A DNA stretch of 64,000 nucleotides from Sphingobium sp. (GTDB lineage: Bacteria; Pseudomonadota; Alphaproteobacteria; Sphingomonadales; Sphingomonadaceae). The translations under genes and the position numbers were made by a program. The stretch lies in contig JAHFPV010000001.1 in the NCBI GenBank assembly GCA_023266575.1, forward strand, positions 62,001-126,000, in the 5' to 3' direction. Within the stretch, counting starts at the first letter, position 1. Every line of letters starts with the position of its first letter. Of this stretch, positions 2,371 through 47,388 are shown piece by piece. The notes beneath the pieces were generated by a model. The model did not search any database. It saw nothing but the letters and a program-made list of their open reading frames with translations, and was not told where the DNA came from.

Positions 2371-2521
2371 CGCCTTCCCTCTCGCGCCAATCCCGCCAAA
2401 CCGCAAGCGGAACGAAAAATGCACGGCCATGGGAAAGAATCGCCATTCCAGGCGTTCGCGCGGCAGGCAGGCATTCCAACCCCTGCGCCACCAAATGGAA
2501 GATCAGGGGGACAATCGGGGT

Positions 2522-4911: not shown

Positions 4912-4936
4912 GGGTGCTTTGGCCCGCCATCTCATC

Positions 4937-5007
4937 CCGTTCGGGCTGAGCCTGTCGAAGCCTTGTACTTTCTAAGAACGACCCTTCGACGAGCTTAGGG
5001 TGAACGG
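4937..5007. repeat. Palindromic repeat, family A (GTTCGGGCTGAGCCTGTCGAAG type)
   Basis: Left arm 4937-4960 and imperfect right arm 4982-5007 form an inverted repeat upstream of the TSUP permease gene and beyond the 3' end of the polyprenyl synthase gene. Related copies are at 12542, 15315, 17467, 26753 and 61549. Confidence 0.8.
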
Positions 5008-5042
5008 CGTTTATTGGTCAGACGAAACGCAGACCCAAATCC

Positions 5043-6071
5043 TCAATAAGCGCGGATCGTCGCGAATTCGACCGCTTCAGTGAGCGCGGCCTTGGCCTTG
5101 CCATTATCGAACATGCCGAGCGCGTCGATTGCGCGCTGGCCGTAGTGGCGGGCGCGGGCGAGCGTGTCGGCGATCGCGCCGGTGCGGCGCAGCAGGGCAG
5201 TGGCGTGGGCCAGATCGTCGTCGCCAATCTTGTGGCCGGCAATCGCGGCCTTCCAGAAGGCGCGATCCTCATCACTGCCACGGGCATAGGCGAGGATGAC
5301 GGGCAGCGTCACCTTGCCATCACGGAAATCGTCGCCCGCATCCTTGCCCATGGTCGCGCCGTCCGATTCATAGTCGATCGCGTCGTCGATCAGCTGGAAG
5401 GCGATGCCGAGGTTGCGGCCATAGACGTCGAGCGCCTGTTCTTCCCGCTCGTCCCGGTCGGCGACCACGGCGGAGATTCGGCAGGCGGCGGCGAACAGCG
5501 CAGCGGTCTTGGCACCGATAATGTCGAGATACTGGTCCTCGCTGGTGTCGATCTTGCGCTGAGCGGTCAGCTGGTTGACTTCGCCCTCCGCGATGACAGC
5601 CGACGCATTCGCCAGGATTTTGAGGACTTTGAGCGACTCGGCCTCGACCATCAGCTCAAACGAGCGGGAGAAGAGGAAGTCACCCACCAGCACGCTGGCG
5701 CTGTTGCCCCAGATGATGTTGGCGGTCTTGCGGCCCCGGCGCAGGCCGGATCCATCGACGACATCGTCGTGCAGCAGCGTGGCGGTGTGGATGAATTCGA
5801 CCGCGGCGGCCAGCTTGTAATGGCGCGACCCGGCATAACCGACCAGATCGGCGCAGGCCAATGTCAGCATCGGCCGCAGCCTCTTGCCCCCGCCCGCGAT
5901 CAGATGGCCGGCCAGTTCGGGGATCAGCGGGATGCGCGACTGCATCCGGTCCAGAATCACGGCATTGACCTGGTTCATGCCGTCGGCGACCAGGTTCATG
6001 ATGGGGGCCAGCGACGGCGCGCTCTTGGCGCGGCCGATGGGGTGGACGTTACCGGGGGCGGGTGCTGTCAT
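5043..6071 (-). CDS. ispB: Polyprenyl diphosphate synthase (octaprenyl/decaprenyl type)
   Basis: A trans-prenyltransferase of 342 residues that condenses isopentenyl diphosphate onto an allylic diphosphate to make the side chain of ubiquinone. Signature motifs are GGGKRLRPML (about 60-69), the first aspartate-rich motif DDVVDGSGLRRGR (102-114) and the second, QLIDDAIDYESD. The start is ATG 6071, with AAGGGACG a few bases upstream; an in-frame ATG at 6185 would add a 38-residue leader and overlap the divergent chorismate mutase promoter. Chain length (C40 or C50) cannot be decided by eye; sphingomonads usually make Q-10. Divergent from the chorismate mutase gene. Confidence 0.93.
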   Translation of the reverse strand: MTAPAPGNVHPIGRAKSAPSLAPIMNLVADGMNQVNAVILDRMQSRIPLIPELAGHLIAGGGKRLRPMLTLACADLVGYAGSRHYKLAAAVEFIHTATLLHDDVVDGSGLRRGRKTANIIWGNSASVLVGDFLFSRSFELMVEAESLKVLKILANASAVIAEGEVNQLTAQRKIDTSEDQYLDIIGAKTAALFAAACRISAVVADRDEREEQALDVYGRNLGIAFQLIDDAIDYESDGATMGKDAGDDFRDGKVTLPVILAYARGSDEDRAFWKAAIAGHKIGDDDLAHATALLRRTGAIADTLARARHYGQRAIDALGMFDNGKAKAALTEAVEFATIRAY

Positions 6072-6174
6072 GACCTGCGTCCCTTGGCGGGGCAAAATGC
6101 AGATGGCAAGCGGGAATAGCTTGCCTGAAAGGCCATATGGCGCAAAAAGCGCGCCGACTGAGCGGAGGACGGAC

Positions 6175-6453
6175 GTGACCGACACATTGCAGCGCTATCG
6201 CGAGAGCATCGACAATATCGACGCGGCGCTGGTGTTCATGCTGGCCGAGCGGTTCAAGATAACCCAGGCAGTGGGCGAATATAAGGCGACCCACGCGCTG
6301 CCCCCCGCCGATCCGGGGCGCGAGGAGCGGCAGGTCGCGCGGCTACGCCAGCTGGCGCTCGACGCCAATCTGGACCCGGATTTCACCGAAAAATTCCTGC
6401 GCTTCATCATTGATGAGGTGATCCGCCACCATGAAAGGTTGCGGGAGGGTTAG
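6175..6453 (+). CDS. Chorismate mutase (AroQ class)
   Basis: A small all-helical protein of 92 residues matching stand-alone AroQ-type chorismate mutase, which converts chorismate to prephenate for phenylalanine and tyrosine synthesis. Family features are the N-terminal YRESIDNIDAALVFMLAERF helix, with Arg and Asp in the usual active-site positions, K in FKITQAVGEYK, and the C-terminal FLRFIIDEVIRHHE helix. The start is GTG 6175, because GGAGGAC sits at 6163-6169 with ideal spacing and translation begins MTDTLQRYRE. Its stop codon overlaps the stop of the convergent DMT exporter (6450-6453). Confidence 0.92.
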   Translation: MTDTLQRYRESIDNIDAALVFMLAERFKITQAVGEYKATHALPPADPGREERQVARLRQLALDANLDPDFTEKFLRFIIDEVIRHHERLREG

Positions 6454-7343
6454 GCCGGTTCGGTCAGGTCGGCTTTTTTCGCCGGGGCCGATCGACCGAG
6501 CAATACGCCGCCCAGCGCCAGCGCAAAGCCGATCAGCTGTATCGGGCCAAGCCGTTCGCCAAAGAGCAGCCAGGCCTCGATCGCGGCCAGCGGCGGCACG
6601 AGCAGCAGCAGCATCGACATGGCGGTCGGCCCCTGATGCCGCACCAGCCAGACGAGCAGGCTGAGACCAGCAGCTGACAGGACAAGCACCGACCAGCCGA
6701 GCGCCGCCCACAGCAGAGGATCATTGTCCCAGCGCCATTCGCCCACGATCAGCGTCGCGGCGATCGCGACCAGTGCGCCGCCGATATTCTGGACGCCGCC
6801 CGACACCAGGATCGGATCGCCCGCGAGTCCCCCGCGCTGGATCAGCGTGCCGCCGGTCATGGCGATGATCGCGACGATGCCCGCTATGGCGAGCACGACC
6901 GTGATCGAGCCGGTGCCGGTGCGGGCGATGGCAGGCAGCAGGACGCAGGTGACGCCCATGATCGCGATGGCCAGCCCCGCCCAGGTGCGGCGCGGCAGCC
7001 GGTCGCCTAGCAGGACGACGCTGGCGACAGCGACCATCAGCGGCTGGAGCGACCCTAGCAGCGCCATCACGCCTGCGGGCATCCCTCGGCTGACCGCCCA
7101 CCAGCTGACCGTCAGATAGACGCCATGCAGCATCGCGCCGGCGACCAGATGCAGGGCCAGCCTGCGCCCGCGCGGGAAGCCTTGTCGCGCAAACAGCGCC
7201 GCGCAGCACAGCAGCAGCGCGACTAGCGAGAGGCGTATCGCCAGCACCAGTTCGGGCGCACCATGCGGCACTACTGCGCGGGCGACGATGAAGCCGGTGG
7301 ACCAGATCAGGACGAACAGGGCGGAGGCGGCAAAAGCAAGCAT
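6450..7343 (-). CDS. EamA/DMT-family membrane exporter
   Basis: 297 residues with about ten membrane segments in two EamA repeats, typical of the drug/metabolite transporter superfamily (RhaT/YdcZ-like exporters in the inner membrane). Characteristic stretches are ALFVLIWSTGFIVAR at the N-terminus, WWAVSRGMPAGVMALLGSLQPL in repeat one and LLLLVPPLAAIEAWLLFGERL in repeat two. The start is ATG 7343; the longer frame upstream passes through a repeat and lacks family sequence. Substrate unknown. Convergent with the chorismate mutase gene. Confidence 0.9.
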   Translation of the reverse strand: MLAFAASALFVLIWSTGFIVARAVVPHGAPELVLAIRLSLVALLLCCAALFARQGFPRGRRLALHLVAGAMLHGVYLTVSWWAVSRGMPAGVMALLGSLQPLMVAVASVVLLGDRLPRRTWAGLAIAIMGVTCVLLPAIARTGTGSITVVLAIAGIVAIIAMTGGTLIQRGGLAGDPILVSGGVQNIGGALVAIAATLIVGEWRWDNDPLLWAALGWSVLVLSAAGLSLLVWLVRHQGPTAMSMLLLLVPPLAAIEAWLLFGERLGPIQLIGFALALGGVLLGRSAPAKKADLTEPA

Positions 7344-7414
7344 GGCCGCGGCTTTGGCGCAGGCGCAACGCGATGTCGAGTGGCGGAAGGGATAGGGAGG
7401 TGCGGCTCTTGGCT

Positions 7415-7436
7415 CCCCTCCCGCAGGCGGGAGGGG
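7415..7436. repeat. Short GC-rich hairpin repeat
   Basis: A perfect palindrome-like hairpin CCCCTCCCGC/GCGGGAGGGG in the 121-bp gap between ccmB and the DMT exporter gene. It has the same core as the repeat embedded in hrpB. It could act as a weak transcriptional barrier after ccmB, but there is no T-run. Confidence 0.75.
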
Positions 7437-7464
7437 CTGGGGGTGGGCCAGCGCGACCTTCGTG

Positions 7465-8112
7465 TTACTCCCGCCCTGCCCGTATCGCCGCGCCACCGGC
7501 AAAAGGCGTGATTGCGACCAGCAACAGCGAGGCGGCGGCGAGAAATTTGAGCGCTGCGCCGCTGCCATCGCCCAGCGTGCCTGCGCCAAAGATCAGCAGC
7601 GGCACCGCCAGCGGCAAAGCCAGTAACCCCGCCAGCGCGCCGCTCGACCGCAGGCCTGCGGTCAGCGTTGCAACCAGCAGGCCGAGCGCCGCCAGCGCCG
7701 GGGTGCCGACCAGCAGGCCCGCCTCCAGCATCCATATCGTGTCGCCATCCAGCTTCAGCAGCGCGGCGGCGGGCAGGGTGGCGATCATCAGCGGCGGGCC
7801 AAAGCCCAGCCAATGGGCGATCAGCCGGGCCAGCACGACCATTTCATCGCTTATGCCGCGCAGCGCCATCTGGTCCAGCACGCCCGCGTCCCGATCCGGC
7901 GCGATCAGCCGGTCGACCGGCAACAGGCTGGCGAGCAGCGCGGCGATCCACAGCATGCCGCCACCGGTACGGCGCAGCAGGCTGAGGTCCGGCCCGACCG
8001 CGAAGGGATAGAGGCTGGCGACCAGCAGCAGGAAGGCGACCGGCAGCCACAGGCCTGATGATCGCCAGGCCGCACCCAGATCGCGCGAGGCGAGCAGCCA
8101 GAGCATCCTCAT
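7465..8112 (-). CDS. ccmB: Heme exporter permease CcmB
   Basis: A 215-residue membrane protein with six predicted helices, the permease of the CcmAB heme transporter in system I cytochrome c maturation. The family N-terminus is recognisable (LWLLASRDLGAAWRSSG, then the PFAVGPD loop), followed by LIAPDRDAGVLDQMAL and GISDEMVVLARLIAHWLG. The start ATG 8110-8112 overlaps the ccmA stop as ATGA, implying translational coupling; an ATG three codons earlier (8121) is possible. No other ccm genes (C, D, E, F, G, H) are in the window, so the pathway is split in this genome. Confidence 0.93.
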   Translation of the reverse strand: MRMLWLLASRDLGAAWRSSGLWLPVAFLLLVASLYPFAVGPDLSLLRRTGGGMLWIAALLASLLPVDRLIAPDRDAGVLDQMALRGISDEMVVLARLIAHWLGFGPPLMIATLPAAALLKLDGDTIWMLEAGLLVGTPALAALGLLVATLTAGLRSSGALAGLLALPLAVPLLIFGAGTLGDGSGAALKFLAAASLLLVAITPFAGGAAIRAGRE

Positions 8113-8720
8113 GCGTCCCACTCCGCTGGATCGGGCAGATGGTCGGAAAGCGACAGGATGACCGGCGTGCCGAGCGGCAGCGGCTGGTGCGACGCGGTCA
8201 CAACGATGCCGCCGCCCGCCAGATGCGCGGAAACGGCCGCGCCCAGCAATACCAGCGAGGCGGTATCAAGCCCATTGCCCGGCTCGTCCAGCAGCCAGAT
8301 CGGCGCGCCGCTGGCGATCACCCGCGCCAGCATCGCCCGCTTGCGCTGCCCGGTCGAGAGCATCCGCACCGGCACATCGGTGAGCGGGGTAAGTGCCATC
8401 GCATCGAGCGCTGCTGCGACCGCGCCGTCCGCACTGTCGTCCAGTCGCGCCCAGAAATCGAGCGCGCGGGCGAGCGGCAATTCGCTGTCGAGCGCCAGCC
8501 GCTCATCGGCCAGCGCGACCGCGCCAGTGCGCTCGATCGTACCGGAAAAGGCGGGGAGCAACCCGGCGCATAGGCGCAACAGGCTGGACTTGCCGACGCC
8601 ATTGGGGCCGGTCAGCAATGCGCTGGCGCCCGCATTCATTGTCAGGTTGACGCCCCGGAACAGCATCCGGCCGCCGCGCAGGCAGGCGACATCGGACAGA
8701 TGCAGCCCCGCCCCGTTCAT
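8109..8720 (-). CDS. ccmA: Heme ABC exporter ATP-binding protein CcmA
   Basis: A single ABC ATPase domain of 203 residues that energises the CcmAB heme/apocytochrome maturation system at the cytoplasmic face. Walker A is GPNGVGKSS, the ABC signature LSTGQRKRAML and Walker B IWLLDEPGNGLD. The H-loop follows in VTASHQPL. The sequence is short for an ABC ATPase, as is normal for CcmA. Its start overlaps the stop of the upstream zincin gene (8717-8720, ATGA) and its stop overlaps the ccmB start, so the three genes form a coupled operon read leftward. Confidence 0.95.
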   Translation of the reverse strand: MNGAGLHLSDVACLRGGRMLFRGVNLTMNAGASALLTGPNGVGKSSLLRLCAGLLPAFSGTIERTGAVALADERLALDSELPLARALDFWARLDDSADGAVAAALDAMALTPLTDVPVRMLSTGQRKRAMLARVIASGAPIWLLDEPGNGLDTASLVLLGAAVSAHLAGGGIVVTASHQPLPLGTPVILSLSDHLPDPAEWDA

Positions 8721-9124
8721 GGCGCGACCATATCCTCCAGCACATGCATGTCGAGGTCGGACAGGCCGAAATGATGGCCGATTTCATGGACGACGACATG
8801 GGTGATCAGCGCATCCAGCGGCACGCCCGTCTCCACCCATTCGTCGAGCAAAGGGCGGCGGAACAAATGGACGGTGGGCGGCGCGTCCCCTGTCTGCGCC
8901 TCCTGCCCGACGGGGCGACCAGTGTAGAGGCCGGTTAGGCCGAACGGGTCGTCAATCTCCATGTCTTTTAAGGTCTGCGCGTCGGCAAATTCCTCCACGA
9001 ACAGGACGACATTGTGGAGATGGTCGGTGAAAGGGGCGGGAAGGCGCGCGAGTGCTTCGAGCGCCAGCGCCTCAATATCCTGCGCGGTGGGAGCGAAGCG
9101 GGGCGGTTGACCGTTGTGCGACAT
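8717..9124 (-). CDS. Zincin-like metallopeptidase-family protein
   Basis: 135 residues matching the small metallopeptidase family common in alphaproteobacteria (formerly DUF1025). The C-terminus has the zinc-binding motif HEIGHHFGLSD preceded by VPLDALITHVVV; upstream is VVLFVEEFAD. The start is ATG 9124, giving MSHNGQPPRF; the longer frame upstream overlaps the divergent pterin dehydratase gene. The gene leads a coupled operon with ccmA and ccmB. Whether it participates in heme or cytochrome maturation is untested; family members have no clear assigned substrate. Confidence 0.88.
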   Translation of the reverse strand: MSHNGQPPRFAPTAQDIEALALEALARLPAPFTDHLHNVVLFVEEFADAQTLKDMEIDDPFGLTGLYTGRPVGQEAQTGDAPPTVHLFRRPLLDEWVETGVPLDALITHVVVHEIGHHFGLSDLDMHVLEDMVAP

Positions 9125-9164
9125 GGCTGCCACATAGGCGAAACTATTTTCAGAGGATAGGGAC

Positions 9165-9452
9165 ATGATCGAGAAGCTGAGCGATGAGGCGCGCGCGCTG
9201 GCGCTGGCTAAGCTGCCCGAATGGACGGTTGTAGCCGACCCGGACGGCATATCGCGCCGCTTTACCTTCCCCGATTTCGTCGCGGCGTTCGGCTTCATGA
9301 CGCGGGTGGCGATAGTCGCGGAGAAAGCGGACCATCATCCTGAGTGGAGCAATGTGTATAACCGGGTGGACATGGTTCTGACCACCCATGATGCGGGCGG
9401 GCTGTCGCAACGGGACATTGATCTGGCCCATCAGGTGGAGGGGTTGTTGTAA
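9165..9452 (+). CDS. phhB: 4a-hydroxytetrahydrobiopterin dehydratase (pterin-4a-carbinolamine dehydratase)
   Basis: A 95-residue single-domain enzyme that dehydrates 4a-hydroxytetrahydrobiopterin, regenerating the pterin cofactor of phenylalanine hydroxylase. The active-site signature [16 protein letters not shown] is complete, including the paired histidines, and is preceded by [18 protein letters not shown] 9165 follows a plausible ribosome site (AGAGGATAGGGAC). No phenylalanine hydroxylase is in the window. Divergent from the zincin-ccmAB operon across a 40-bp gap that must hold both promoters. Confidence 0.94.
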
Positions 9453-9457
9453 TATGC

Positions 9458-9649
9458 ATCCTCCCCTTGAAGGGGATCGTTGCGAAATTCCCTGTTCATA
9501 GATTTTTACGTCATCCCCGCGCAGGCGGGGATCCATCTCCGAACCTGAAATCACGGCGATAAGGCGGGAGATGGATTCCCGCCTGCGCGGGAATGACGAA
9601 GCCTTATAGGTTTATCGAGTTTCGCCATGATCCCCTTGCAGGGGAGGAT
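9458..9649. repeat. Nested palindromic repeat: MITE-like outer element containing a family B repeat
   Basis: The outer arms 9458-9490 and 9617-9649 are imperfect inverted repeats of about 33 bp (core CTCCCCTTGAAGGGGATC). Inside lies a second inverted-repeat element, 9509-9598, with arms beginning CGTCATCCCCGCGCAGGCGG. The inner type also occurs at 31797-31887. The arrangement looks like one repeat having landed in another. No coding sequence is present. Confidence 0.85.
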
Positions 9650-9655
9650 TTAGAG

Positions 9656-10159
9656 CTACTCTTCCTCCCGCCCCTCGATGCGGTCCTCATAGCTGTGCAG
9701 CGCGGCGGTGACGGCGGGGTCGGTGGCGTAGCGGCGGCGGAGCATGGCCAGGGTCGCGTCGGACCCGTGGCACAGTTCCGCGACATTTTCCTCGATATAG
9801 GCGCGGCGTTCCGCGTCATAGGGTTCCTCGCCCCGGAAATGGTCACAACTGTCGCGCGCGACCATGAACTGGGTCACTTCGCGCGGGAAAGGGTCTGCGC
9901 TGGCGGCGACGTCGGACGGGGGCAGGTCAAGCGAATGCCAGGGCGCGGGTTGGGCGCGGACGGTGACCACGGGACCGGCTTTGGGGGTCGGACTGACCAC
10001 CGGTTCGGGCTGCGGCGCGACGGGCGCGGGGGTAGCCACCATGGCTGCGGGCTTGGCAGGGCTGGCATCGGCCTGCGCGACCTGCGGCGACGGGTCCCCA
10101 CAGCCCGCGACGAGCGCCAGCATCATGCCTATCGGAACCAGCCTTAACCGCCTGCTCAC
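9656..10159 (-). CDS. Putative lipoprotein, proline/alanine-rich
   Basis: 167 residues; the start is GTG 10159, overlapping the patatin-like gene's stop as GTGA. The N-terminus MSRRLRLVPIGMMLALVAGC is a lipoprotein signal peptide with lipobox LVAGC (lipidated Cys20). A low-complexity Pro/Ala/Val linker follows (to about residue 75), then a folded C-terminal region with two cysteines (DSCDHF, AELCHGS) that could form a disulfide. No domain is recognised. Translational coupling with the patatin-like gene suggests a shared function or localisation, which is inference. Confidence 0.75.
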   Translation of the reverse strand: MSRRLRLVPIGMMLALVAGCGDPSPQVAQADASPAKPAAMVATPAPVAPQPEPVVSPTPKAGPVVTVRAQPAPWHSLDLPPSDVAASADPFPREVTQFMVARDSCDHFRGEEPYDAERRAYIEENVAELCHGSDATLAMLRRRYATDPAVTAALHSYEDRIEGREEE

Positions 10160-12489
10160 CCGATTTCCTCCCGCAAGCTGGCGATCAGGTCCGCGACATG
10201 GGGTAGCCGCGACTCTTCTTCGTCCAGGATCGCCAGAAAAGCCGCCCGCCTATAGTCGCGCAGCGCGTCGGGGGAAAGGCGGCTTGCGGCGGGCATGGCG
10301 GAAATCACGATGTCCAGCAGCCGCTCGACCCCGTGCAGGCGGCCCCACAAATAGTCATTCTCCCGATAGACCCTGCTAAAGAAAGCCCCGAAATTATTGA
10401 ATTCTATGCCTTTGAGCGTGGCGGCCGCTCCGCCGGGCCGGATCGCGGAGCAATCTTCGGGCGAAATCCGGTCGACCTTCACCGGATCATATTCGTCCAT
10501 AGTGTCACCCTGAAGCAACGGTAGGGTGGCGATGTCGTAGAAGGGAAAGCCCAGATAGGCGAGCAGCATGGACCGGCGGCCTGCCTTGGGAAGCGCAGCG
10601 AAGGCTTCGGCCAGGATCAGGTCCGCGCCATCGTCCCGCGCCCGCAGGTCACGGTCCTGCGCCACCGCCTCCAGCGCGGCGGCGGCGTCGCCCGCCACGG
10701 TGCGCGCGGCGGCCAGCACCGTGGCGCCGTGGAAATCGCTCTCCTCGCACGCGGCATAGAGGGCCAGCGCGCGGTAGATCGCGTCATGCATGGCCAGCAC
10801 GGCCTCATCCTCCGCCGCGCCGTCGCTTTCCAACGTGTCGGCCAGATGCCGCGCCAGAAAGCGCAGCCGGCGGATGCGGAAGGCCAGATCATGGGTGCGG
10901 AAGAAGGTGACGGGGGCGGAACCTGACCCGCCGCTGTCGTTCAACTGGTCCGCGCCATCCTTGCGCACCTGCGCCCAGATCGCCGTGCGGTAGGTTTCGC
11001 GCAGCATCCGGCTGTCCTCCCCCGACAGGCGGAACAAGAGGGTGGCGAGCGATTCCACGATCCCCGACAGTTTCAGATGACCATAAGCGGGGAAGGCAAA
11101 ACCCGCAGAACTGGCCGCCCGCTGCTGCGCCTTGGCGCGCCAGGCCGACAGGCGGGCAGGGGTGGGCCGGTCAAGGAACAGCATCCCGCCAATCGCCCCT
11201 TCCACCTCCGCCTCGATACCGGGGCGCAGCGCGTTCAGGATGCGGCGCATCCGGCGGATCCGCGCGGAATGGCGGTCGATCGCCTCCAGATTGTCACGGA
11301 TCGGCTGTTCGCGCGGAATGTCGCTCAAAGCGCCGAAAATGGTGCGGAAGAAGCCGGGCAGCGGCGCGTCCTCGCCGGTCGGCACCGCGACCTGATCACC
11401 ATGGCGGTTCAACTGGATGGTGCGGTGGCCGGGCTTGGGATCGATATAGACGAAGCGCCGGTCAACCTCCCGCCGTGACGGTCGGTTACGCAGCGCGCCG
11501 ATCGCCTGCGCGAAAGGAGCGTTGGCCAGCACCGAACCGTCGATCAGCACCGCATCCTCCGCCGTGCCGCGCGCCCAGTGGCGGGGCAAAGCGCGGGCGA
11601 GAAAGGCGTCGCGTGTCGGCCAGACGCGATGACGGCGCTTCAACACCCGGTCCAGTTCGCGCACGGTGAAGGGCGGGAAAGCGCCGGGGAAGCTGGCGGT
11701 CGCACGCGCGGCGAATACCAGTTCGGCGGTGTCGGCGAAGCTGCGCGTCCCCCGCCCCCGCGCTCGGAAGCCGATCGACAGGCGATGCTCGGTCTCGATC
11801 ACCTGCGGCGGGCTGTTGAGGGTCAGGCTTTGCGGATGGCCTTCAAAATCGGTGACGGTGACGAACAGGTCGAGCGGATGACCGTCGGGCAGCAGCACCG
11901 GGCCGCGTTCGCTGGCCGCCATCGCATCGAAGGCGTCGAGAATCAGGGTGGTGAAAATCTCCCCGCCAAAGGGCGGCTCGAACCAGCGCGAGCGGATGAA
12001 GCGGGACAGTTTCATCCGCACTTCCTCACGCGTTTCCGGGGCAACGGTGCGCTCCACCGCGTCGCCCGGTCGTCGCGCCGCCATCCAGACGAGCGGCGTC
12101 GCCCAGAACTTCGTGAGCGCGCGGGCGGGGCGGGCGTCGGGGTCGAGCAGGCTGTCGACATCGGCATTGTCGAGCCACAGATCGGTCAGTGGTTCGAGCG
12201 ACTGGCCGGTCTCGATCGCCTGCGCCAGAAAAATGCCGTTGATCCCGCCAGCGCTGGCCCCGGCGATAATGTCCGGCAGCACCCGCAGTCGCACGCCGCT
12301 GGCGGCTTCCATGTCTGCCAGCAATTTGTGATAAATCGCCTCGCTGCCCGTGGTCGGCGGCACGCCATCATGGAAGGCGCGACTGGCACGCGCTAACCGC
12401 CACACCTCCTTGGTGATGCCATGCATGTAGATCGCCAGGCTGATGCCGCCATAGCAGACCAGACCGAGCCTGAGTTCCCTCTCCTTCAT
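10156..12489 (-). CDS. Patatin-like phospholipase-family protein with large C-terminal region
   Basis: 777 residues. An N-terminal patatin domain (about 1-370) has the oxyanion glycine loop (CYGGISLAIYMHG), nucleophile elbow GASAG with Ser79, and catalytic Asp in LIDGSVLANAPF. Ser-Asp dyad enzymes of this family hydrolyse acyl esters of lipids. The remaining ~400 residues match the long C-terminal part of bacterial 'patatin-like protein' of this length rather than classic short patatins. The start ATG 12489 gives MKERELRLGL; an in-frame start at 12534 lies within a poorly conserved leader. No signal peptide, so probably cytoplasmic or membrane-associated. Coupled to the downstream lipoprotein gene. 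Confidence 0.88.
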   Translation of the reverse strand: MKERELRLGLVCYGGISLAIYMHGITKEVWRLARASRAFHDGVPPTTGSEAIYHKLLADMEAASGVRLRVLPDIIAGASAGGINGIFLAQAIETGQSLEPLTDLWLDNADVDSLLDPDARPARALTKFWATPLVWMAARRPGDAVERTVAPETREEVRMKLSRFIRSRWFEPPFGGEIFTTLILDAFDAMAASERGPVLLPDGHPLDLFVTVTDFEGHPQSLTLNSPPQVIETEHRLSIGFRARGRGTRSFADTAELVFAARATASFPGAFPPFTVRELDRVLKRRHRVWPTRDAFLARALPRHWARGTAEDAVLIDGSVLANAPFAQAIGALRNRPSRREVDRRFVYIDPKPGHRTIQLNRHGDQVAVPTGEDAPLPGFFRTIFGALSDIPREQPIRDNLEAIDRHSARIRRMRRILNALRPGIEAEVEGAIGGMLFLDRPTPARLSAWRAKAQQRAASSAGFAFPAYGHLKLSGIVESLATLLFRLSGEDSRMLRETYRTAIWAQVRKDGADQLNDSGGSGSAPVTFFRTHDLAFRIRRLRFLARHLADTLESDGAAEDEAVLAMHDAIYRALALYAACEESDFHGATVLAAARTVAGDAAAALEAVAQDRDLRARDDGADLILAEAFAALPKAGRRSMLLAYLGFPFYDIATLPLLQGDTMDEYDPVKVDRISPEDCSAIRPGGAAATLKGIEFNNFGAFFSRVYRENDYLWGRLHGVERLLDIVISAMPAASRLSPDALRDYRRAAFLAILDEEESRLPHVADLIASLREEIG

Positions 12490-40085: not shown

Positions 40086-40160
40086 TGGGGCGTCGCCAAG
40101 CGGTAAGGCAGCGGCTTTTGATGCCGCCATGCGCAGGTTCGAATCCTGCCGCCCCAGCCA
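40086..40160 (+). tRNA. tRNA-Gln (anticodon TTG), integration site of an island
   Basis: Cloverleaf: acceptor TGGGGCG/CGCCCCA, D-arm GCCAAGCGGTAAGGC, anticodon stem GCGGC/GCCGC with loop TTTTGAT (anticodon TTG), T-arm GCAGGTTCGAATCCTGC, and encoded CCA end. Its last bases are duplicated 2.5 kb downstream at 42624-42641, marking an integration event that left the tRNA intact. Confidence 0.97.
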
Positions 40161-40161
40161 A
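40144..40161 (+). repeat. attL direct repeat (tRNA-Gln 3' end)
   Basis: TCCTGCCGCCCCAGCCAA, part of the intact tRNA-Gln gene; an identical copy is at 42624-42641. Confidence 0.93.
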
Positions 40162-40211
40162 ACACAGATTTTCCTTATAATACATAAACTTACGGGTAAT
40201 TTTTCTCTGAT

Positions 40212-40236
40212 TGTGTGACAGGTCTGTGTGACAGGT
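40212..40236 (+). promoter_or_regulatory. Paired TGTGTGACAGGT repeats, left end (candidate integrase arm sites)
   Basis: Two perfect copies of TGTGTGACAGGT (40212-40223 and 40225-40236) with a 13-bp period, 51 bp inside attL. The second overlaps the GTG start of the abi gene, so a bound recombinase could affect its expression. Confidence 0.7.
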
Positions 40237-41040
40237 TCGGATGACTTCTTTAAACCATCGGGATCAGCGGATGATGGCTTTGACCCTGTCGCATCATTGC
40301 CGACAGACAGGATTGAACGTGCCCTCACCTTCCGCACCGCCTTAATCAATGAAGCAACTGGCGGCTCAATGAGTAGCGCCGTCTACAAGGTTCTGCGGGC
40401 TGAGCTGTTAGCCGATCCGAGCTTAGCCTCGCTCGTGCCCCGTTTCATCCGCGTCTGTCAGGACAGCGGCGATTTCTGGCAGTTCATCAAGGCCGAGTAC
40501 AGCACTTATGCCGAGCGCAGAACGTATCTGAGGGAACAGTTTGCGCCGCTCATGGAAAGGATTGAGCAAGGGGCCAGCCCTAGCTCCACCTTCATTACGG
40601 AGGGGTTACAGACATTCGATGCGGCGGAGGTGCATCGTGTTTGGTCGAAGGCCATCTCTCGATGTGAGCAGGACCCAGAAGGAGCGGTCACTTCAGCGCG
40701 CACACTGCTTGAAAGCGTCTGTATGTACGTCCTTGACGGTATTGATGCCAATACACCCCTCTACGGCCCTGGTGATGATCTCCCGAAACTATATCGGCTG
40801 ACTGCCGAGAAGCTTAATCTTGCCCCGTCCCAGCATACTGAACAAGTTTTCAAACAGCTGCTCGGAGGATGCGTGACGGTGGTTGAGGGTGTGGGCGCAA
40901 TCCGAAACCGCCTTGGTGATGCCCACGGCAAGGGGCGTCGGCCTGTACGGATTGCCGCTAGGCACGCGCATCTAGTCGTCAATCTTTCAGGCGCTATGGC
41001 GCTTTATCTAGTGCAGACCGCTGCAGCGCGCGGTATTTGA
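40228..41040 (+). CDS. Abortive-infection-family protein (Abi_C-type C-terminal domain)
   Basis: 270 residues from GTG 40228; no later start fits before Met48. The C-terminal ~90 residues contain the family signature, with GVGAIRNRLGDAHGKGRR followed by RHAHLVVNLSGAMALYLVQT, as in 'abortive infection family protein' (PF14355-type, recalled from memory). The middle has a conserved-looking ARTLLESVCMYVLDG helix. No signal peptide or membrane helix. Family members are encoded in defence and mobile regions; toxicity or phage resistance has been shown only for some. First gene inside attL; composition is less GC-rich than the chromosome around it. It may form a unit with the FRG-like fragment 36 bp downstream. 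Confidence 0.85.
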   Translation: MTGSDDFFKPSGSADDGFDPVASLPTDRIERALTFRTALINEATGGSMSSAVYKVLRAELLADPSLASLVPRFIRVCQDSGDFWQFIKAEYSTYAERRTYLREQFAPLMERIEQGASPSSTFITEGLQTFDAAEVHRVWSKAISRCEQDPEGAVTSARTLLESVCMYVLDGIDANTPLYGPGDDLPKLYRLTAEKLNLAPSQHTEQVFKQLLGGCVTVVEGVGAIRNRLGDAHGKGRRPVRIAARHAHLVVNLSGAMALYLVQTAAARGI

Positions 41041-41062
41041 TCGGACCGCAAGGTTTTTACGA

Positions 41063-41072
41063 GGGGGGGGGG
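41063..41072 (+). repeat. G10 homopolymer before a GTG start
   Basis: Ten consecutive guanines just upstream of the candidate GTG start 41077, in the position of a ribosome-binding site. Such tracts are prone to slippage in replication and also to sequencing error. Confidence 0.9.
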
Positions 41073-41076
41073 CCGG

Positions 41077-41493
41077 GTGCAGGGACAGTGGATCGGACGT
41101 TGCGAAGGAACGAACTCGGGAACGGTCATTATCGATGTGGACGATTGCGGGCCATTTTTTCAAGGCACCGCTGCTCTCTTTGAGGATGAGCAAGGCTTGC
41201 CGGGGAGCTTTGTCAGCTTTAGGACACTTGACCGTGGAAGAGAACATCAGTTCGATGAACTAACCGTTACGCCTTTAGACCCCACCAATTATAATTTCAG
41301 CGATCGTGATGCCCTCGTTGCGTATTATAAAAACGCTGGTCACGAGTTGACATTCCCAAGGACCGCCAGTGTTCACCTGAAGCTAGAAGGCGATGTCCTA
41401 AACGCGAGCTGGAAAACCGACATAGGGACGACCGGAAGCGCGGCTAGGCACCTGCTTGAGCCAGCCGACGCTGGGGCCGCGCCGCCGCCTTGA
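41077..41493 (+). CDS. Fragment resembling the N-terminal domain of FRG-domain proteins
   Basis: 138 residues from GTG 41077. The sequence WIGRCEGTNSGTVIIDVDD followed by GTAALFEDEQGLPGSFVSF, FPRTASVHLKLEG and ASWKTDIGTTGSA resembles, from memory, the beta-rich N-terminal region of proteins that carry an FRG domain further on. The FRG domain is absent: family-like sequence ends near 41448 and the frame closes in a Pro/Ala-rich tail, so this is probably a truncated gene. Same strand as the abi gene, 36 bp after it. It may be non-functional or may be a stand-alone beta domain. Confidence 0.55.
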   Translation: MQGQWIGRCEGTNSGTVIIDVDDCGPFFQGTAALFEDEQGLPGSFVSFRTLDRGREHQFDELTVTPLDPTNYNFSDRDALVAYYKNAGHELTFPRTASVHLKLEGDVLNASWKTDIGTTGSAARHLLEPADAGAAPPP

Positions 41494-41793
41494 TAAGAAT
41501 ACGCCGTAGGTTGTGTGGACGGAGCCGCCGGGGGAGCCTTGGAACAACGCCCGGAGTTCGGTGAAGGTTGTCGGCGTCCCCGACCGGCAGGCCATCGCGG
41601 CGAACATGAATACGGCCATTTGGGTTGATGACAGGCGGGTCGGGGTGGCGGACGCCAAAAACGCAAGTCCCAGCGCCCATGTGCGCAAGCTAGGAATCGC
41701 CTCCATTTCACTTACAGTCCCGCGCACCCTTCCTGCCCCTTCTCCGCCCGGTGCATTGTGGCGGACGGCACGATGGTTTGTCACCCGTGCCAA
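41398..41793 (-). pseudogene. Possible remnant of a winged-helix regulator
   Basis: An open frame of 131 residues on the minus strand. The middle, LSSTQMAVFMFAAMACRSG followed by FTELRALFQGSPGGSVHTTY and VGWLKQ, resembles the MarR-like winged-helix proteins found in integrase-bearing islands. Sequence after VGWLKQ overlaps the FRG-like fragment antisense and is not family-like, suggesting a deletion junction near 41450-41500. The first ~30 residues are also unconvincing. Low confidence. Confidence 0.35.
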
Positions 41794-41896
41794 TCGACTT
41801 TTCTTCGACCAGAAAACAGAAAGTTACGGCGGGTCGATTCCCTCAAATGTCGGGAAATGAACTGGACTGCGTCGTAGCAGTAGGAGCAAGGCTCCT

Positions 41897-42509
41897 TTAT
41901 GCGGAAGGCAGGTTCACGCCGGGATATGCGATCATCGCCACGATTGACGCCATGCGCGCCAGCGACACGGTCTTGCCGTAGGTCTTGAACGTAAACACCT
42001 TCTCGTGTCCGACCAGCTGCGCCACCTCGTTGGCCGGAATGCCTGCCTCTTCCAGCTGCCCCACGAAGTTCTTACGAAACGAGTGGAACACCTTGCGCCG
42101 GTCATTGAAGCCCCGCGCTTGCTTCAGCCGTGAGAACTCCCGGCCAGCGTCGGCCCCTGCTTTCTTCCCCGGCCCTTCTTCGTTGAATTGAGGCCACACG
42201 CGGCCCGATGATTTGCCCGCAGCGCGCTCCGCCAGCCATGACAGGGCGGGATGCAAAGGCAGCTTCTTCGCGAACGCGGGCGTAAATCGCGCGCAATGAC
42301 CCGGTGGTCGGGTCTGCCGTATTTGCCAGCCCGCTCCACTCCAGCCGCAGGGTCGCCTCCCAAGCCCCTGCCTCGACCCGCGCCAGTTTCCTGTCGGAGG
42401 TTCCTAAGGTTTTCTGGAGGAACTCTTTGCCGTCGTAAAGGAGTTGCATTTCCTTCGGAATGCGGACCTTGGCGGAGTAGCGATTGTGGCGGAGGATCAG
42501 GGTAGCCAT
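41897..42509 (-). pseudogene. Tyrosine recombinase/integrase with internal deletion
   Basis: The N-terminal piece begins at ATG 42509 (MATLILRHNRYSAKVRIPKE) and reads in frame to about 42250. The C-terminal piece, in another frame from about 42256 to the stop at 41897, has VFHSFRKNFVGQLEEAG, with the box II His-x-x-Arg (HSFR), then VAQLVGHE and the tyrosine region FKTYGKT. The core-binding domain and first catalytic arginine are missing: about 205 codons remain of a family that usually has 350-450. Located just inside attR, the expected position for an island integrase. Confidence 0.82.
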
Positions 42510-42525
42510 GTGTCATCTTTGCCCG

Positions 42526-42550
42526 TGTGTGACAGGTTTGTGTGACAGCT
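42526..42550 (+). promoter_or_regulatory. Paired TGTGTGACAGGT repeats, right end (candidate integrase arm sites)
   Basis: TGTGTGACAGGT (42526-42537) and TGTGTGACAGCT (42539-42550, one mismatch), with the same 13-bp period and same strand as the pair at 40212-40236. They lie between the integrase start and attR. Confidence 0.7.
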
Positions 42551-42623
42551 ATGTGTGGCATAACCACCGGTAAATCAACAGAATATATACGATCCAAGGC
42601 CTTAACCCCTGTCTGGCTCAGCC

Positions 42624-42641
42624 TCCTGCCGCCCCAGCCAA
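42624..42641 (+). repeat. attR direct repeat
   Basis: TCCTGCCGCCCCAGCCAA, identical to 40144-40161; no tRNA body precedes it, so this is the duplicated end left by integration. Confidence 0.93.
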
Positions 42642-42723: not shown

Positions 42724-45700
42724 TTACCGCCCCAGCAGTCCGCGGGCCTGGCCCGCAATCTCCGCCAGCATCGCGACATTGGGGGTTGCCGCCGCTTTGG
42801 CGCGTTGCACAAGGGTGCGGAACTGGCGGATACGCGGACCGCGCTGGATCAGCCAATGTTCGACATGGGCCGAAATATCCTTGCCTTTCCCCTGCGCCAG
42901 GAAATCGAGCCGGACCTGCTGCATGTCGCGGGCGACGCCGGAAATCAGCAGTCGCTCCCACGGGTCGGTCGGTTCCATGCGCGCGGCGGCGGACTGGACC
43001 CAGTCGATGCCCACTGCTTCGCCCAGATGGGTGAAGGCGCGGGTCAGCGCGATTTCATCCACGCCCATCTTTCCGGCCAGCGCTGCGATGCCGACCGCAC
43101 CGTCTAGCTTGAACAGCCCCGCCGTGCGCCGCGCCAACGCCTCTGGCGCGCCAAGCGCCAGCAGCCTGTCCGTCACCGCATTGGTGCGTCGCTGCGCCTC
43201 GCTGGTCAGCAGATCATCGACCTGCGCCGCCAGTGATCCGACGCCCTGGGTCAGTGCCGTCAGACCTGCGCTGGGCAGCGTGCCCGCCGGCTGGCTGCGC
43301 AAGATATCGGCAATCTGCGCCCGCATCCCGCCGGCAATATCGCCGAACAGGGCAAGACGCGCGCTTTCCGCCATATCGGCCGCGTCAATGTCTGCCCATA
43401 GCGTGCCAATGTCATAGAGCCGCTCGGCGATCAGGAAGGCGCTGGCCATGTCGCCCAGCGAACAGCCTTCCTCCTCCACAAGTTCGAACGGATGAATGAG
43501 GCCCAGCCGGTTGACGATGCGGTTGGCGACCTTTGTGGCGATAATCTCTTTGCGCAGGGCATGGGCAGCGATCGCGTCAGCTTCCTTCTCCTGCATCGCA
43601 GCGGGGAAGGCGGCCATCAGCTCGCCGGTCATGCTTTCATCGCTGGCGAGGTCGCCTTGTTCGATCGCGTCCTGCAAGGTCAGCTTGGCGGTGGACAGCA
43701 GCACGGCCAGTTCCGGCCGGGTCAGCCCCTGTCCATCCTGTCCGCGCCGCAGCAACTGGTCATTGGCGGCAAGTCCTTCAACCTGCCGGTCCAGTCGCCC
43801 GCTTTCCTCGAACGTCTCGATCAGCCGCACATAGCTTGCCAGATCCGCCGCGCCGCCACTTTCGGCAATCGACAGGCCAAGCGCCTGCAAGCGGTTATCC
43901 TCCAGCACGATCGCGCCGACCGCATCGGTCATGCTTTCCAGCAGGGCATTGCGCTCCTCGAACGGCAGGCGGCCCTCGGCCATCTCCTTGTTGAGGGCAA
44001 TCTTGATATTGACCTCATTATCCGAACAATCGACGCCTGCGCTATTGTCGATGAAATCGGTGTTGATCCGCCCACCGCGCAGCGAAAAGGCGATGCGCCC
44101 CGCCTGTGTCGTGCCCAGATTGGCGCCTTCGCCAATCACCTTGACCCGCAGCTGCTCGGCATTGACGCGCAGCCGGTCATTGGCCGGGTCACCGACATCG
44201 CCATGGCTCTGCGCTGCCGCTTTCACATAGGTGCCTATGCCACCGAACCAGAGCAGGTCGGCAGGGGCTTTGAGGATCGCGGAAATGAGTGCGGTCGGCT
44301 CCATCTCCGCTTCCGTCACGCCCAGTATCGCCTGGATTTCCGGGGTCAGCGGGATGCTCTTGAGCGCGCGGGAAAACACCCCGCCGCCCTTGGAGATCAG
44401 CGCCTTGTCATAATCCTCCCAGCTCGACCGGGGCAGCTGGAACAGCCGGTTACGCTCCTCCCAGCTCTTGCCCGGATCGGGCGCGGGGTCGAAGAAGATG
44501 TGGCGATGGTCGAACGCGGCGACCAGCTTGATCGCCTTGCTGAGCAGCATCCCGTTGCCGAACACGTCGCCCGACATGTCGCCACAGCCCACGACGCTGA
44601 CCGGCTCACTCTGCACATCAACGCCCATTTCGGCAAAGTGGCGCTGCACCGAAATCCATGCGCCACGCGCGGTGATGCCCATCGCCTTATGGTCGTAACC
44701 ATTGGACCCGCCGCTGGCAAAGGCGTCGCCCAGCCAGAATTTGCGGTCGAGCGCGATGGCATTGGCTACGTCGCTGAAAGTGGCGGTCCCCTTGTCGGCG
44801 GCGACCACGAAATAGGGGTCGTCGCCGTCGCGCACCACGACTTGCGCGGGATGCTTCACATGGTCGTTGACGATATTGTCGGTGACCGACAGCAGCGCGC
44901 GGATGAAGATGCGATAGCTTTCGGTGCCTTCCGCCAGCCAGGCGTCGCGATCGACCTGGGGGCTTGGCAATTGCTTGGGATAGAAGCCGCCCTTGGCCCC
45001 GGTCGGCACGATCACGGCGTTCTTGACCCGCTGGGCCTTCATCAGGCCAAGGATTTCGGTGCGGAAATCGTCGCGCCGGTCGGACCAGCGCAGCCCGCCG
45101 CGCGCCACGGGGCCGGCGCGCAGATGGATGCCTTCGACCCGCGGGCTATAGACCCAGATTTCGCGCCATGGCAGCGGCGCGGGCAGGCCGGGCACCTGCG
45201 CACTGTCCAGCTTGAACGCCAGCGCCTCGACCGCTGCCTTGCTGAAGAAATTGGTGCGCAGCGTTGCGCTGATGACCGCGCGCAACAGGCGCAACACCCG
45301 GTCCTCGTCAATTGCCGTGACCGCTTCGAGTCCGGCGTCGATCGCGGCCTGCGCCTCTGCCACCCGCGCGTCCGCGCCATCGCGCGCGGCGGGATCGTGC
45401 AGCGCTTCGAACAGGGTGATCAGATTGACCGCAACCCCCTGCGCCCGGCGCAGCGTTTCGGCAAAGGTCGCCATGCCATAGGCCATGCCGGTCTGGCGCA
45501 GATAGCGGAACAGCGCGCGGAACAGCACCACCGATCGCGGGGTCAGTCCGGCGGTGACGATCAGTTCGTTGAACCGGTCATTTTCCGCCCGGCCTTCCAG
45601 CACCTGGGCGATCGCTTCGGTGACTATGTCGGCGCGGGCCACGACGCCCTGCGCATCGCCGCCCGCGGGCAGTTCCAGCACGAAACGCTGGACATGACCC

Positions 45701-47388
45701 AGCGCGCCGCCATCAATCGCCGTCGTCATTTCCTCGATCACGCGGAAACCGAAATTCTCGAACGCCGGGACCACTTCGGACAAAGCGATCGTCACATGGC
45801 TGTAGAGTTTGAGCCGCAGCCGTTCGGCGCTGTCCTCCGGGTTGCGATAGATGCGGATCGCCTTGTCGCCCGGACCGGACAGACCGTGGATCAGGCGAAT
45901 GTCGATCGCCGCTTCGGCTGGCCCCGCGCCATTGCGATAGACCGCCGGGAAGCCCCCGGCGTAACGCTGCGCCAGCGCGGCGGCGCGGCCCGGCTCTTCG
46001 GTCTGGGTCAGCGCTTCCTCGACAGCGGGCAGCCAGCCACGCACCATTTGCTTCAATTGATGGTCCAGCGCCACATCGTCCGGCACCACGCCGCCTTCGC
46101 GCAGGTCGAGCGTGATGCGCAGCAGCGCGAGGCCACCTTCCTCCAGCGCGATCGACCAGCTGAGCACCGGGCCATTGGCGGCTTCCGACAGCATGTCCTG
46201 CACCGCTACCCGTCGCGCGGTCGACAATTCGTCGCGCGGCAACCAGACGAAGGCGTAGAGATGCCGCGCCAGCGCACTGGTCGCCAGCGCCAGCTTGGGC
46301 CGGGGCCGGTCGGTCAGCGACATGAAGGTCAGCGCCAGCCGCTCCAGCGTCTCGCGATCGAAACCGATGGTAATGTCATGGGGCAGGGCGGTCAGCGCAT
46401 GGGCCAGCGTCTTGCCCGCATGGCCCGCGGGATCGAAGCCGAACTTGTCCATCAGATTCGACAAGGTCGAACGCAGCAACGGCACCTTGTCCGGCGTCGC
46501 CGACAGGCCCGAACTGGTCCACATGCCCGCATGGATCGACAGCGCCTTGACCTCGCGCCCTTCGCGCACGGGGACGATGATCAGGTCGAGCAGCACATGG
46601 CGATGGATGCGCGAGATGCGGCTGGACTTGATGATCAGCGGCGTGCGCTTGCCTTCCTCGAACCAGACGAACGCCGCCTCCAGCGATGCGGGCGCGATCA
46701 GCGTCTTGTCGCGCAGGGTGCAGATGCCCAGCCGCGACTGGGTGGTGCCGTCGCGGTTGCACAGCTCATGCCCGGTCTGGGTGAAATGGCGCGCCAGGAA
46801 CCAGCGCAGCAGCGCCGCGCCTTCCTCGTCCGGCACCGCGTCGGCGTCCGCCGCCATCGCCGCCTGCATCGGCGCCCAGTCGGCCACCGCCGCCCGCACA
46901 TCGGTCAGCGTATCGCGCAGCGCCTTTTCCAGCCCCCGGCGCGCCTTGGCGTCGGCCCGGTCAGCCTCGATATAAATCATCGATTCGCGGCGCGCGCCCG
47001 GCACGTCATCGTCCAGGATCGCGGCGAGCGTTCCGTCGGCATGGCGCGTCACCGACAGGACTGGGTGCAACAGGCGGTGGATGGTGATGTCGGCGGCGGC
47101 CAGCGTGTTGGCGATGCTGTCGACCAGGAAGGGCATGTCGTCATTGACGATCGCGATCCGCATGTAGCGGCCATTGGCGCCTTCGCCCAGCGTCTCGACC
47201 ATGATCGCGGCGTCGCCCGGCTTGCGCCCGTTGGCGGTGCGGCCCAGGAAGGCGGCGGCGGCCGCTATGCCCTGCTCGTCCAGTCCTTCGCGTTCGCCGG
47301 GCAAGGCACCCCGCTCCAGCGCTGCCTCCAGCGCCTCCCGGATGAACGTATCGACTTCCTTGATGTTCGCGTCCGCCAGCGCCGTCAT
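42724..47388 (-). CDS. gdh2: NAD-specific glutamate dehydrogenase, large (180-kDa) type
   Basis: 1554 residues, typical of the large bacterial NAD-GDH, which converts glutamate to 2-oxoglutarate and ammonia and serves catabolism. A long N-terminal regulatory region (ACT-like segments; MRIAIVNDDMPFLVDSIANT) precedes the catalytic core with GPVARGGLRWSDRRDDFRTE, MKAQRVKNAVIVPTGAKGG and VVAADKGTATFSDVAN. The NAD-binding part follows (GVDVQSEPVSVVGCGDMSGD). Then comes a long helical C-terminus. The stop lies 83 bp from attR, so the island integrated just beyond its 3' end. No regulator is adjacent. Confidence 0.97.
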   Translation of the reverse strand: MTALADANIKEVDTFIREALEAALERGALPGEREGLDEQGIAAAAAFLGRTANGRKPGDAAIMVETLGEGANGRYMRIAIVNDDMPFLVDSIANTLAAADITIHRLLHPVLSVTRHADGTLAAILDDDVPGARRESMIYIEADRADAKARRGLEKALRDTLTDVRAAVADWAPMQAAMAADADAVPDEEGAALLRWFLARHFTQTGHELCNRDGTTQSRLGICTLRDKTLIAPASLEAAFVWFEEGKRTPLIIKSSRISRIHRHVLLDLIIVPVREGREVKALSIHAGMWTSSGLSATPDKVPLLRSTLSNLMDKFGFDPAGHAGKTLAHALTALPHDITIGFDRETLERLALTFMSLTDRPRPKLALATSALARHLYAFVWLPRDELSTARRVAVQDMLSEAANGPVLSWSIALEEGGLALLRITLDLREGGVVPDDVALDHQLKQMVRGWLPAVEEALTQTEEPGRAAALAQRYAGGFPAVYRNGAGPAEAAIDIRLIHGLSGPGDKAIRIYRNPEDSAERLRLKLYSHVTIALSEVVPAFENFGFRVIEEMTTAIDGGALGHVQRFVLELPAGGDAQGVVARADIVTEAIAQVLEGRAENDRFNELIVTAGLTPRSVVLFRALFRYLRQTGMAYGMATFAETLRRAQGVAVNLITLFEALHDPAARDGADARVAEAQAAIDAGLEAVTAIDEDRVLRLLRAVISATLRTNFFSKAAVEALAFKLDSAQVPGLPAPLPWREIWVYSPRVEGIHLRAGPVARGGLRWSDRRDDFRTEILGLMKAQRVKNAVIVPTGAKGGFYPKQLPSPQVDRDAWLAEGTESYRIFIRALLSVTDNIVNDHVKHPAQVVVRDGDDPYFVVAADKGTATFSDVANAIALDRKFWLGDAFASGGSNGYDHKAMGITARGAWISVQRHFAEMGVDVQSEPVSVVGCGDMSGDVFGNGMLLSKAIKLVAAFDHRHIFFDPAPDPGKSWEERNRLFQLPRSSWEDYDKALISKGGGVFSRALKSIPLTPEIQAILGVTEAEMEPTALISAILKAPADLLWFGGIGTYVKAAAQSHGDVGDPANDRLRVNAEQLRVKVIGEGANLGTTQAGRIAFSLRGGRINTDFIDNSAGVDCSDNEVNIKIALNKEMAEGRLPFEERNALLESMTDAVGAIVLEDNRLQALGLSIAESGGAADLASYVRLIETFEESGRLDRQVEGLAANDQLLRRGQDGQGLTRPELAVLLSTAKLTLQDAIEQGDLASDESMTGELMAAFPAAMQEKEADAIAAHALRKEIIATKVANRIVNRLGLIHPFELVEEEGCSLGDMASAFLIAERLYDIGTLWADIDAADMAESARLALFGDIAGGMRAQIADILRSQPAGTLPSAGLTALTQGVGSLAAQVDDLLTSEAQRRTNAVTDRLLALGAPEALARRTAGLFKLDGAVGIAALAGKMGVDEIALTRAFTHLGEAVGIDWVQSAAARMEPTDPWERLLISGVARDMQQVRLDFLAQGKGKDISAHVEHWLIQRGPRIRQFRTLVQRAKAAATPNVAMLAEIAGQARGLLGR

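Follow-up and report, generated by a model that had tools for sequence, protein, structure and literature searches.

What is the DNA enclosed by two copies of a tRNA 3' end in Sphingobium sp., and what does the one gene that is still whole within it represent? The window analysed here comprises 64,000 nucleotides (positions 62,001 to 126,000 of contig JAHFPV010000001.1, assembly GCA_023266575.1), and in it a tRNA-Gln gene is followed by a 2.5-kb island that ends in a second copy of the tRNA 3' end. We consider it likely that these 2.5 kb are the wreck of an integrative element that targeted tRNA-Gln, in which an abi gene encoding a HEPN-type protein (Abi) is the sole whole gene. An initial annotation, made from the letters of the window, had described a decayed island with an abortive-infection cargo gene at this place.

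The duplication consists of the last 17 bases of tRNA-Gln and one further base. As the initial annotation had reported, the two 18-bp copies are identical. The tRNA itself is kept complete, and both borders of the island carry the 3' end of the target, as in a tRNA-targeted element. With up to three mismatches allowed, the 18-mer was matched at only two places in the window (40144 and 42624); shuffled controls gave a mean of 0.18 matches, and two matches in one of 100 shuffles. In the whole 3.62-Mb genome the exact 17-bp core was present at both island borders only, with one additional place at one mismatch. The shuffles and the genome count rule out chance, as well as membership of an unrelated dispersed family, which would have spoken against an island. 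The empty sites described below have G as the 18th base, and the core common to relatives is therefore 17 bp. Just inside both ends lie tandem repeats of TGTGTGACAGG with a 13-bp period; this pattern occurs at the two island ends and at no other place in the genome, and the reversed pattern was not found (0). Because an integrase-borne element with arm sites would show such repeats at its two ends, they presumably served as arm-type integrase sites. These repeats, and the cut FRG-type gene described below, were not part of the first reading of the island.

A functional integrase is absent. Two integrase pieces lie on the minus strand in different frames and, aligned with the full-length integrases of three related loci (L001, L082 and L083), the N-terminal piece corresponds to about the first 90 residues and the C-terminal piece begins at the 'HPxLxWL' stretch. 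The gap between the two pieces amounts to about 260 residues, which agrees with the earlier statement that the integrase had lost its middle. The missing part includes R321 and K348 (L001 numbering), which are invariant in the three full-length proteins; H415/R418, H441 and Y451 are kept in the window. We take all of these for catalytic residues of the tyrosine recombinase class. At E ≤ 1e-60 the rest of the genome yielded no further integrase of this family, and for this reason the earlier description of the island as stranded is reasonable. A second gene is also cut: the truncated open reading frame ORF2 matches a 373-aa protein (L093) at 47% over residues 1-122, and L093 carries an FRG domain (PF08867) at 157-250. 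A search of plasmids with ORF2 gave no match.

The site in related genomes was examined in a sample of 94 genomes of the genus, 93 besides the one under study. The tRNA query matched 93 of the 94, own genome included, and the query from the other flank matched all 94. The best tRNA-query match in the relatives ends at most 8 bases from the tRNA end, except in G043 and G027, where it runs past that end by 19 and 11 bases. Empty sites with a single repeat copy, as predicted by the initial annotation, join the tRNA to the chromosomal neighbour in 3 of the 93 other genomes. The flank matches of G023 and of G091 share exactly 17 bp, which is one repeat copy and no insert, and those of G054 are 111 bp apart with a single copy; the sequence letters of these sites were inspected. 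The site was judged only where the flanks adjoin; in most other genomes of the genus the two loci lie apart. In G062, the closest relative by the neighbouring gene (94%), the tRNA is followed by other DNA on one contig and a second repeat copy precedes the neighbouring gene on another, from which we infer a different island spanning the contig break. In G085 (also 94% by this gene) approximately 20 kb separate the tRNA and its neighbour. Interior island DNA (41041-42600) matched 2 of the 93 genomes, both over the C-terminal part of the integrase, and the island content was found at the tRNA-Gln site in none of the 93, where its presence in all relatives, with no empty site, would have argued against an inserted island. 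Given the empty sites, the other DNA in G062 and G085 and the two interior matches, the island content is, judged from genome comparison, not ancestral and the tRNA-Gln site is a target that has been used repeatedly. We note that further copies of the tRNA-Gln 3' end were seen 4 to 79 kb from the tRNA (G005:C1 38569/104276; G042:C1 3215045/3294060; G011:C50 8680/18029; G047:C9 70733/81136; G058:C2 338009/342151), and these second copies probably mark further islands at the same tRNA.

The larger, intact island with the same cargo that the initial annotation had anticipated was found in Sphingomonas sp. ATCC 31555 (L001). This 7.7-kb island is inserted at tRNA-Gln(TTG) 7734-7808, with the 18-bp repeat at 7792 and 15472 and a 36-bp arm repeat at 7857 and 15371, the left arm repeats of the window having their counterpart here. 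An abi gene stands next to the tRNA with a serine resolvase as its neighbour, and a full-length 477-aa integrase lies at the far end, before the second repeat. The island in the window is alike in its tRNA, gene order, arm-repeat layout, abi (72%) and integrase family; L001, in contrast, is intact, with a resolvase, zinc proteins and the core A and C genes described below, and it has no match to the FRG-type gene of the window.

Features of the tRNA-Gln island and its flanks (positions are those of the window)
Feature	Position	Strand	Basis or remark
tRNA-Gln (TTG), integration target, still complete	40086..40160	+	ARAGORN; Rfam RF00005 62.9 bits
attL-side 18-bp repeat (tRNA 3' end)	40144..40161	+	exact copy of 42624..42641
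Left tandem pair of TGTGTGACAGG, 13-bp period, candidate integrase arm sites	40212..40235	+	units 40212/40225
abi, 270-aa HEPN protein, intact frame, GTG start	40228..41040	+	Abi_C, PADLOC AbiJ, phrog_23253, alignment, fold
ORF2, truncated, N-terminal domain of FRG-type protein	41077..41493	+	homology ends near 41442; FRG domain lost
Tentative remnant of short gene	41482..41682	-	40% over 67 aa, E 3e-10, to L098 in G119
Integrase C-terminal piece (HxxR, H, Y kept)	41897..42256	-	PF00589 Phage_integrase 28.5 bits; 60-65% to full-length integrases
Integrase N-terminal piece (DUF6538), homology about 42224-42509	42102..42509	-	PF20172 37.7 bits; 37-45% to full-length integrases
Right tandem repeats of TGTGTGACAGG, 13-bp period	42526..42561	+	units 42526/42539
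attR-side 18-bp repeat	42624..42641	+	exact copy of 40144..40161
Chromosomal neighbour, 1554-aa open reading frame	42724..47388	-	adjoins tRNA-Gln in empty sites G023, G091, G054

That the abi gene is of the Abi_C type and has an intact frame was borne out: Pfam Abi_C (PF14355) was matched at 71.6 bits (cut-off 24), the 270 codons are uninterrupted, and the N terminus of the protein aligns with the ATG start of a Sphingomonas naasensis protein (L002). The protein also matched phrog_23253 (2.4e-57, residues 28-264) and the AbiJ model of PADLOC (1.2e-18), the latter over residues 147-263, which is the C-terminal part alone. Fold comparison (AF2 model, VIA-align) identifies the C-terminal half as a HEPN domain; the MntA-HepT and SO_3166-SO_3165 structures are among the matches. 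A sequence search of the PDB gave no relative at a meaningful E-value (best 0.11), and whole-protein Foldseek matches were mostly to unrelated helical proteins. HEPN families, AbiJ included, have been described as carrying an R-x4-6-H motif with a polar residue after the arginine (PMC3710099), and Abi has this arrangement as R-N-x3-D-x-H (R226-N227...H233), invariant in 19 of 19 aligned sequences. The alignment holds the window protein and 18 of 22 fetched relatives; it omits L012 (unknown letters) and L015, L018 and L118 (partial), and the motif is visible in L012, L015 and L018. Based on the HEPN fold and the invariant motif, our best guess is that Abi is a predicted ribonuclease of the AbiJ/Abi_C kind. 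It is like these proteins in its C-terminal HEPN domain with R-x6-H and the polar residue (PMC3710099), but differs in that its helical N-terminal half has no Pfam match above cut-off, in a library that may not hold all five AbiJ N-terminal types. Relatives are sparse in the genus, with weak ones in 15 of the 93 other genomes at no more than 39% identity, apart from a 46-residue match at 46%. Five other genomes among 397 of the family reach 1e-30 (best 56%), and a pattern-based scan of genome contigs yielded 18 abi loci, the closest being the 72% identical gene of ATCC 31555.

The abi gene begins 67 nt behind tRNA-Gln on the same strand, with neither a terminator-like site between the two nor a promoter-like site upstream of abi detected. 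Because of this spacing, the shared strand and the lack of a terminator-like site, abi may owe its transcription to read-through from the promoter of the tRNA. Translation of abi starts at a GTG (40228) inside the left arm repeat and thus overlaps a possible integrase site; in the intact element, integrase bound at the arm repeat could have repressed abi.

As regards the remaining features, the relative of the tentative short-gene remnant (L098, 195 aa) sits just upstream of an integrase-like gene. A genuine remnant would place a deletion junction between 41443 and 41482. It was searched with the frame 41398-41793, which we had taken to resemble a winged-helix regulator; Pfam gave no match in the frame, in the remnant or in L098. 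The 1554-aa neighbour is presumably an NAD-glutamate dehydrogenase, and a tRNA-Pro called by ARAGORN within it (43095-43188, minus strand) was treated as probably false.

The element family to which the island belongs goes beyond what was first read from the window. A profile of the three full-length integrases (alignment A1: L001, L082 and L083) recovered, at 1e-60, 15 genes in 14 of the 397 family genomes, and 17 element loci (L001, L082, L083 and L119-L132; 14 newly fetched) were compared. In thirteen, the 3' end of a tRNA is repeated exactly over 16-20 bp at the borders; these elements lie at tRNA-Gln (9), tRNA-Pro (3) or tRNA-Trp (1) and are 5.5-15.7 kb in size. Gene counts leave out L083, L126 (contig end), L129 and L130, which have no such repeat. 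As in the window, 9 of the 13 also have an exact repeat of 13-36 bp immediately inward of the two ends, and an inner repeat of at least 13 bp was not found in L123, L125, L127 and L132. Genes of the relatives were taken from a codon-score script and open-frame lists rather than from a gene finder. By open-frame clustering the integrase is shared by 13/13 elements, a serine resolvase by 12/13, core protein A (250-280 aa) and a cysteine-rich protein C by 9/13 each, and a zinc protein D by 7/13, the four D proteins scanned all matching endonuclease-VII-type PHROGs; a small protein B was found in 6/13 in each clustering and in 7 in all. The usual order is integrase, A, B, C, D, serine resolvase, cargo and tRNA, with D before A in L119.

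The cargo on the tRNA side is of defence type in 7 of the 13 elements: Abi_C in L001, a reverse transcriptase in L119, SIR2 of PDC-S25 in L120, a PDC-M30/M41 pair in L123 (the element without a resolvase), HSDR_N by Pfam in L127, a PDC-M07 pair plus a type I restriction-modification system across the resolvase in L128, and FRG of PDC-S15 in L131. The PDC families are candidate rather than proven systems according to their library. L132 has only a weak Csx1-type PADLOC match (0.0015), PADLOC gave no match in the cargo of L082, L121, L122 and L124, and the frame in the slot of L125 lay outside the library scans. Elements without defence-type cargo carry small to middle-sized proteins of unknown kind towards the tRNA. 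One of these, a 267-aa protein next to the tRNA in the tRNA-Pro element of G002 (L082 9044-9847, minus strand), has no Pfam or PADLOC match and is a candidate for an unknown defence gene. Literature listings on satellites in sphingomonads or alphaproteobacteria, on internal virion proteins and on tRNA-Gln islands showed no account of this element family, and nothing was found on DUF6538.

Could these elements be phage satellites? We regard this as a lead, suggested by genes for virion or packaging proteins in two elements and a related contig. L131 (G331, 15.4 kb) has three genes matching internal virion protein families, one of them T7_gp14. L120 (G407, 15.7 kb) encodes a 1399-aa protein related to phage proteins, several annotated as internal virion protein D; its relatives are in Caulobacter phage S2B (4e-37, annotated as hypothetical) and in Roseobacter and Pelagibacter phages, and it has no PHROG or Pfam match of note. 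No capsid gene was recognized among the scanned proteins of either element; L121 has an anti-repressor gene. The only viral contig found with A1 (L114; IMGVR_UViG_3300049136_000125, 1-10327) encodes a related integrase (55% over residues 148-472), followed by terminase large subunit, major head protein and head-tail adaptor genes and then by two genes without assigned function (490 aa and 269 aa), the shorter of which has an RNPHAH motif; the contig looks like a capsid-forming satellite or a small prophage. Weighing against the suggestion, searches of 50,697 phage records with two core A proteins gave no match, no virion gene was recognized in elements other than L131 and L120, and the 64-kb window has no phage virion or packaging genes. 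Capsid-forming phage-inducible islands are comparable with L114 in the genes behind its integrase, but none of these genes is in the window and none was recognized in most family members. P4-like satellites have a defence hotspot between psu and int (PMC9122126) and are alike as small integrase-borne elements with exchangeable defence genes near one end. In the present family, however, the slot is on the tRNA side, mostly behind the serine resolvase and at the opposite end to int; the scanned proteins included no recognizable P4-type gene (psu was not searched by name) and no helper is known.

Several explanations can be considered for what the abi gene represents. One, which we put forward tentatively and at slightly less than even chances, is that the island is a fossil member of a so far undescribed sphingomonad family of phage satellites with an antiphage slot, and that the HEPN gene has been left to the host. 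This would take in the DUF6538-type integrase, the arm repeats, the tRNA-Gln, tRNA-Pro and tRNA-Trp sites, the core genes and the resolvase, and some members would encode DNA-ejection or capsid proteins of their own. A rather unlikely explanation is that abi is just the last piece not yet deleted from a dying element and has no host function. The neighbouring genes are indeed broken, no second strain shows preservation, no close abi copy exists in any other of the 94 genus genomes and the missing promoter-like site would fit as well; yet all HEPN motif residues and the 270-codon frame were kept while the integrase and the FRG-type gene were broken.

Another possibility is that Abi is the HEPN toxin of a toxin-antitoxin or stress system instead of an antiphage protein. 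HEPN proteins serve several conflict systems (PMC3710099), and MntA-HepT and SO_3166-SO_3165 are among the fold matches. We find this improbable, as no nucleotidyltransferase partner was present among the scanned island frames, the abi gene of L001 adjoins a serine resolvase and not an antitoxin, and related elements carry PADLOC defence genes towards the tRNA. That abi arrived on one element and the integrase pieces on a later one would be consistent with the repeated targeting of this tRNA (the other DNA in G062 and the insert of approximately 20 kb in G085), but L001 holds abi and integrase in one 7.7-kb unit with the same order and end-repeat layout, and such a double origin is very doubtful.

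For the wreck of a single tRNA-Gln-targeted element, we propose the following history. A DUF6538-type tyrosine recombinase would have inserted an element, probably 7-8 kb in size, as many related elements are, at the 3' end of tRNA-Gln, using the 13-bp-period arm repeats just inside both ends and duplicating about 17 bp. At least two internal deletions would then have removed the middle of the integrase, the element core and the FRG domain of the FRG-type gene, and abi, adjoining the tRNA, would have survived whole. Selection may have driven this trimming, as the initial annotation had proposed. In the most likely mode of action, the N-terminal part of Abi would sense phage infection, upon which the HEPN domain would cleave RNA, translation would stop and the phage burst would be lost.

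If so, the locus gives a view, within a single genome, of a mobile element decaying down to its defence gene, and would be a case of a satellite-type gene kept after the death of its element. Were the satellite origin true, the HEPN gene would be a single-gene immune locus of the host that may use the promoter of the tRNA. In the sphingomonads, these small elements at tRNA genes, with their arm repeats and interchangeable defence cargo, form a coherent family whose predictable cargo slot is a place to seek new antiphage genes.
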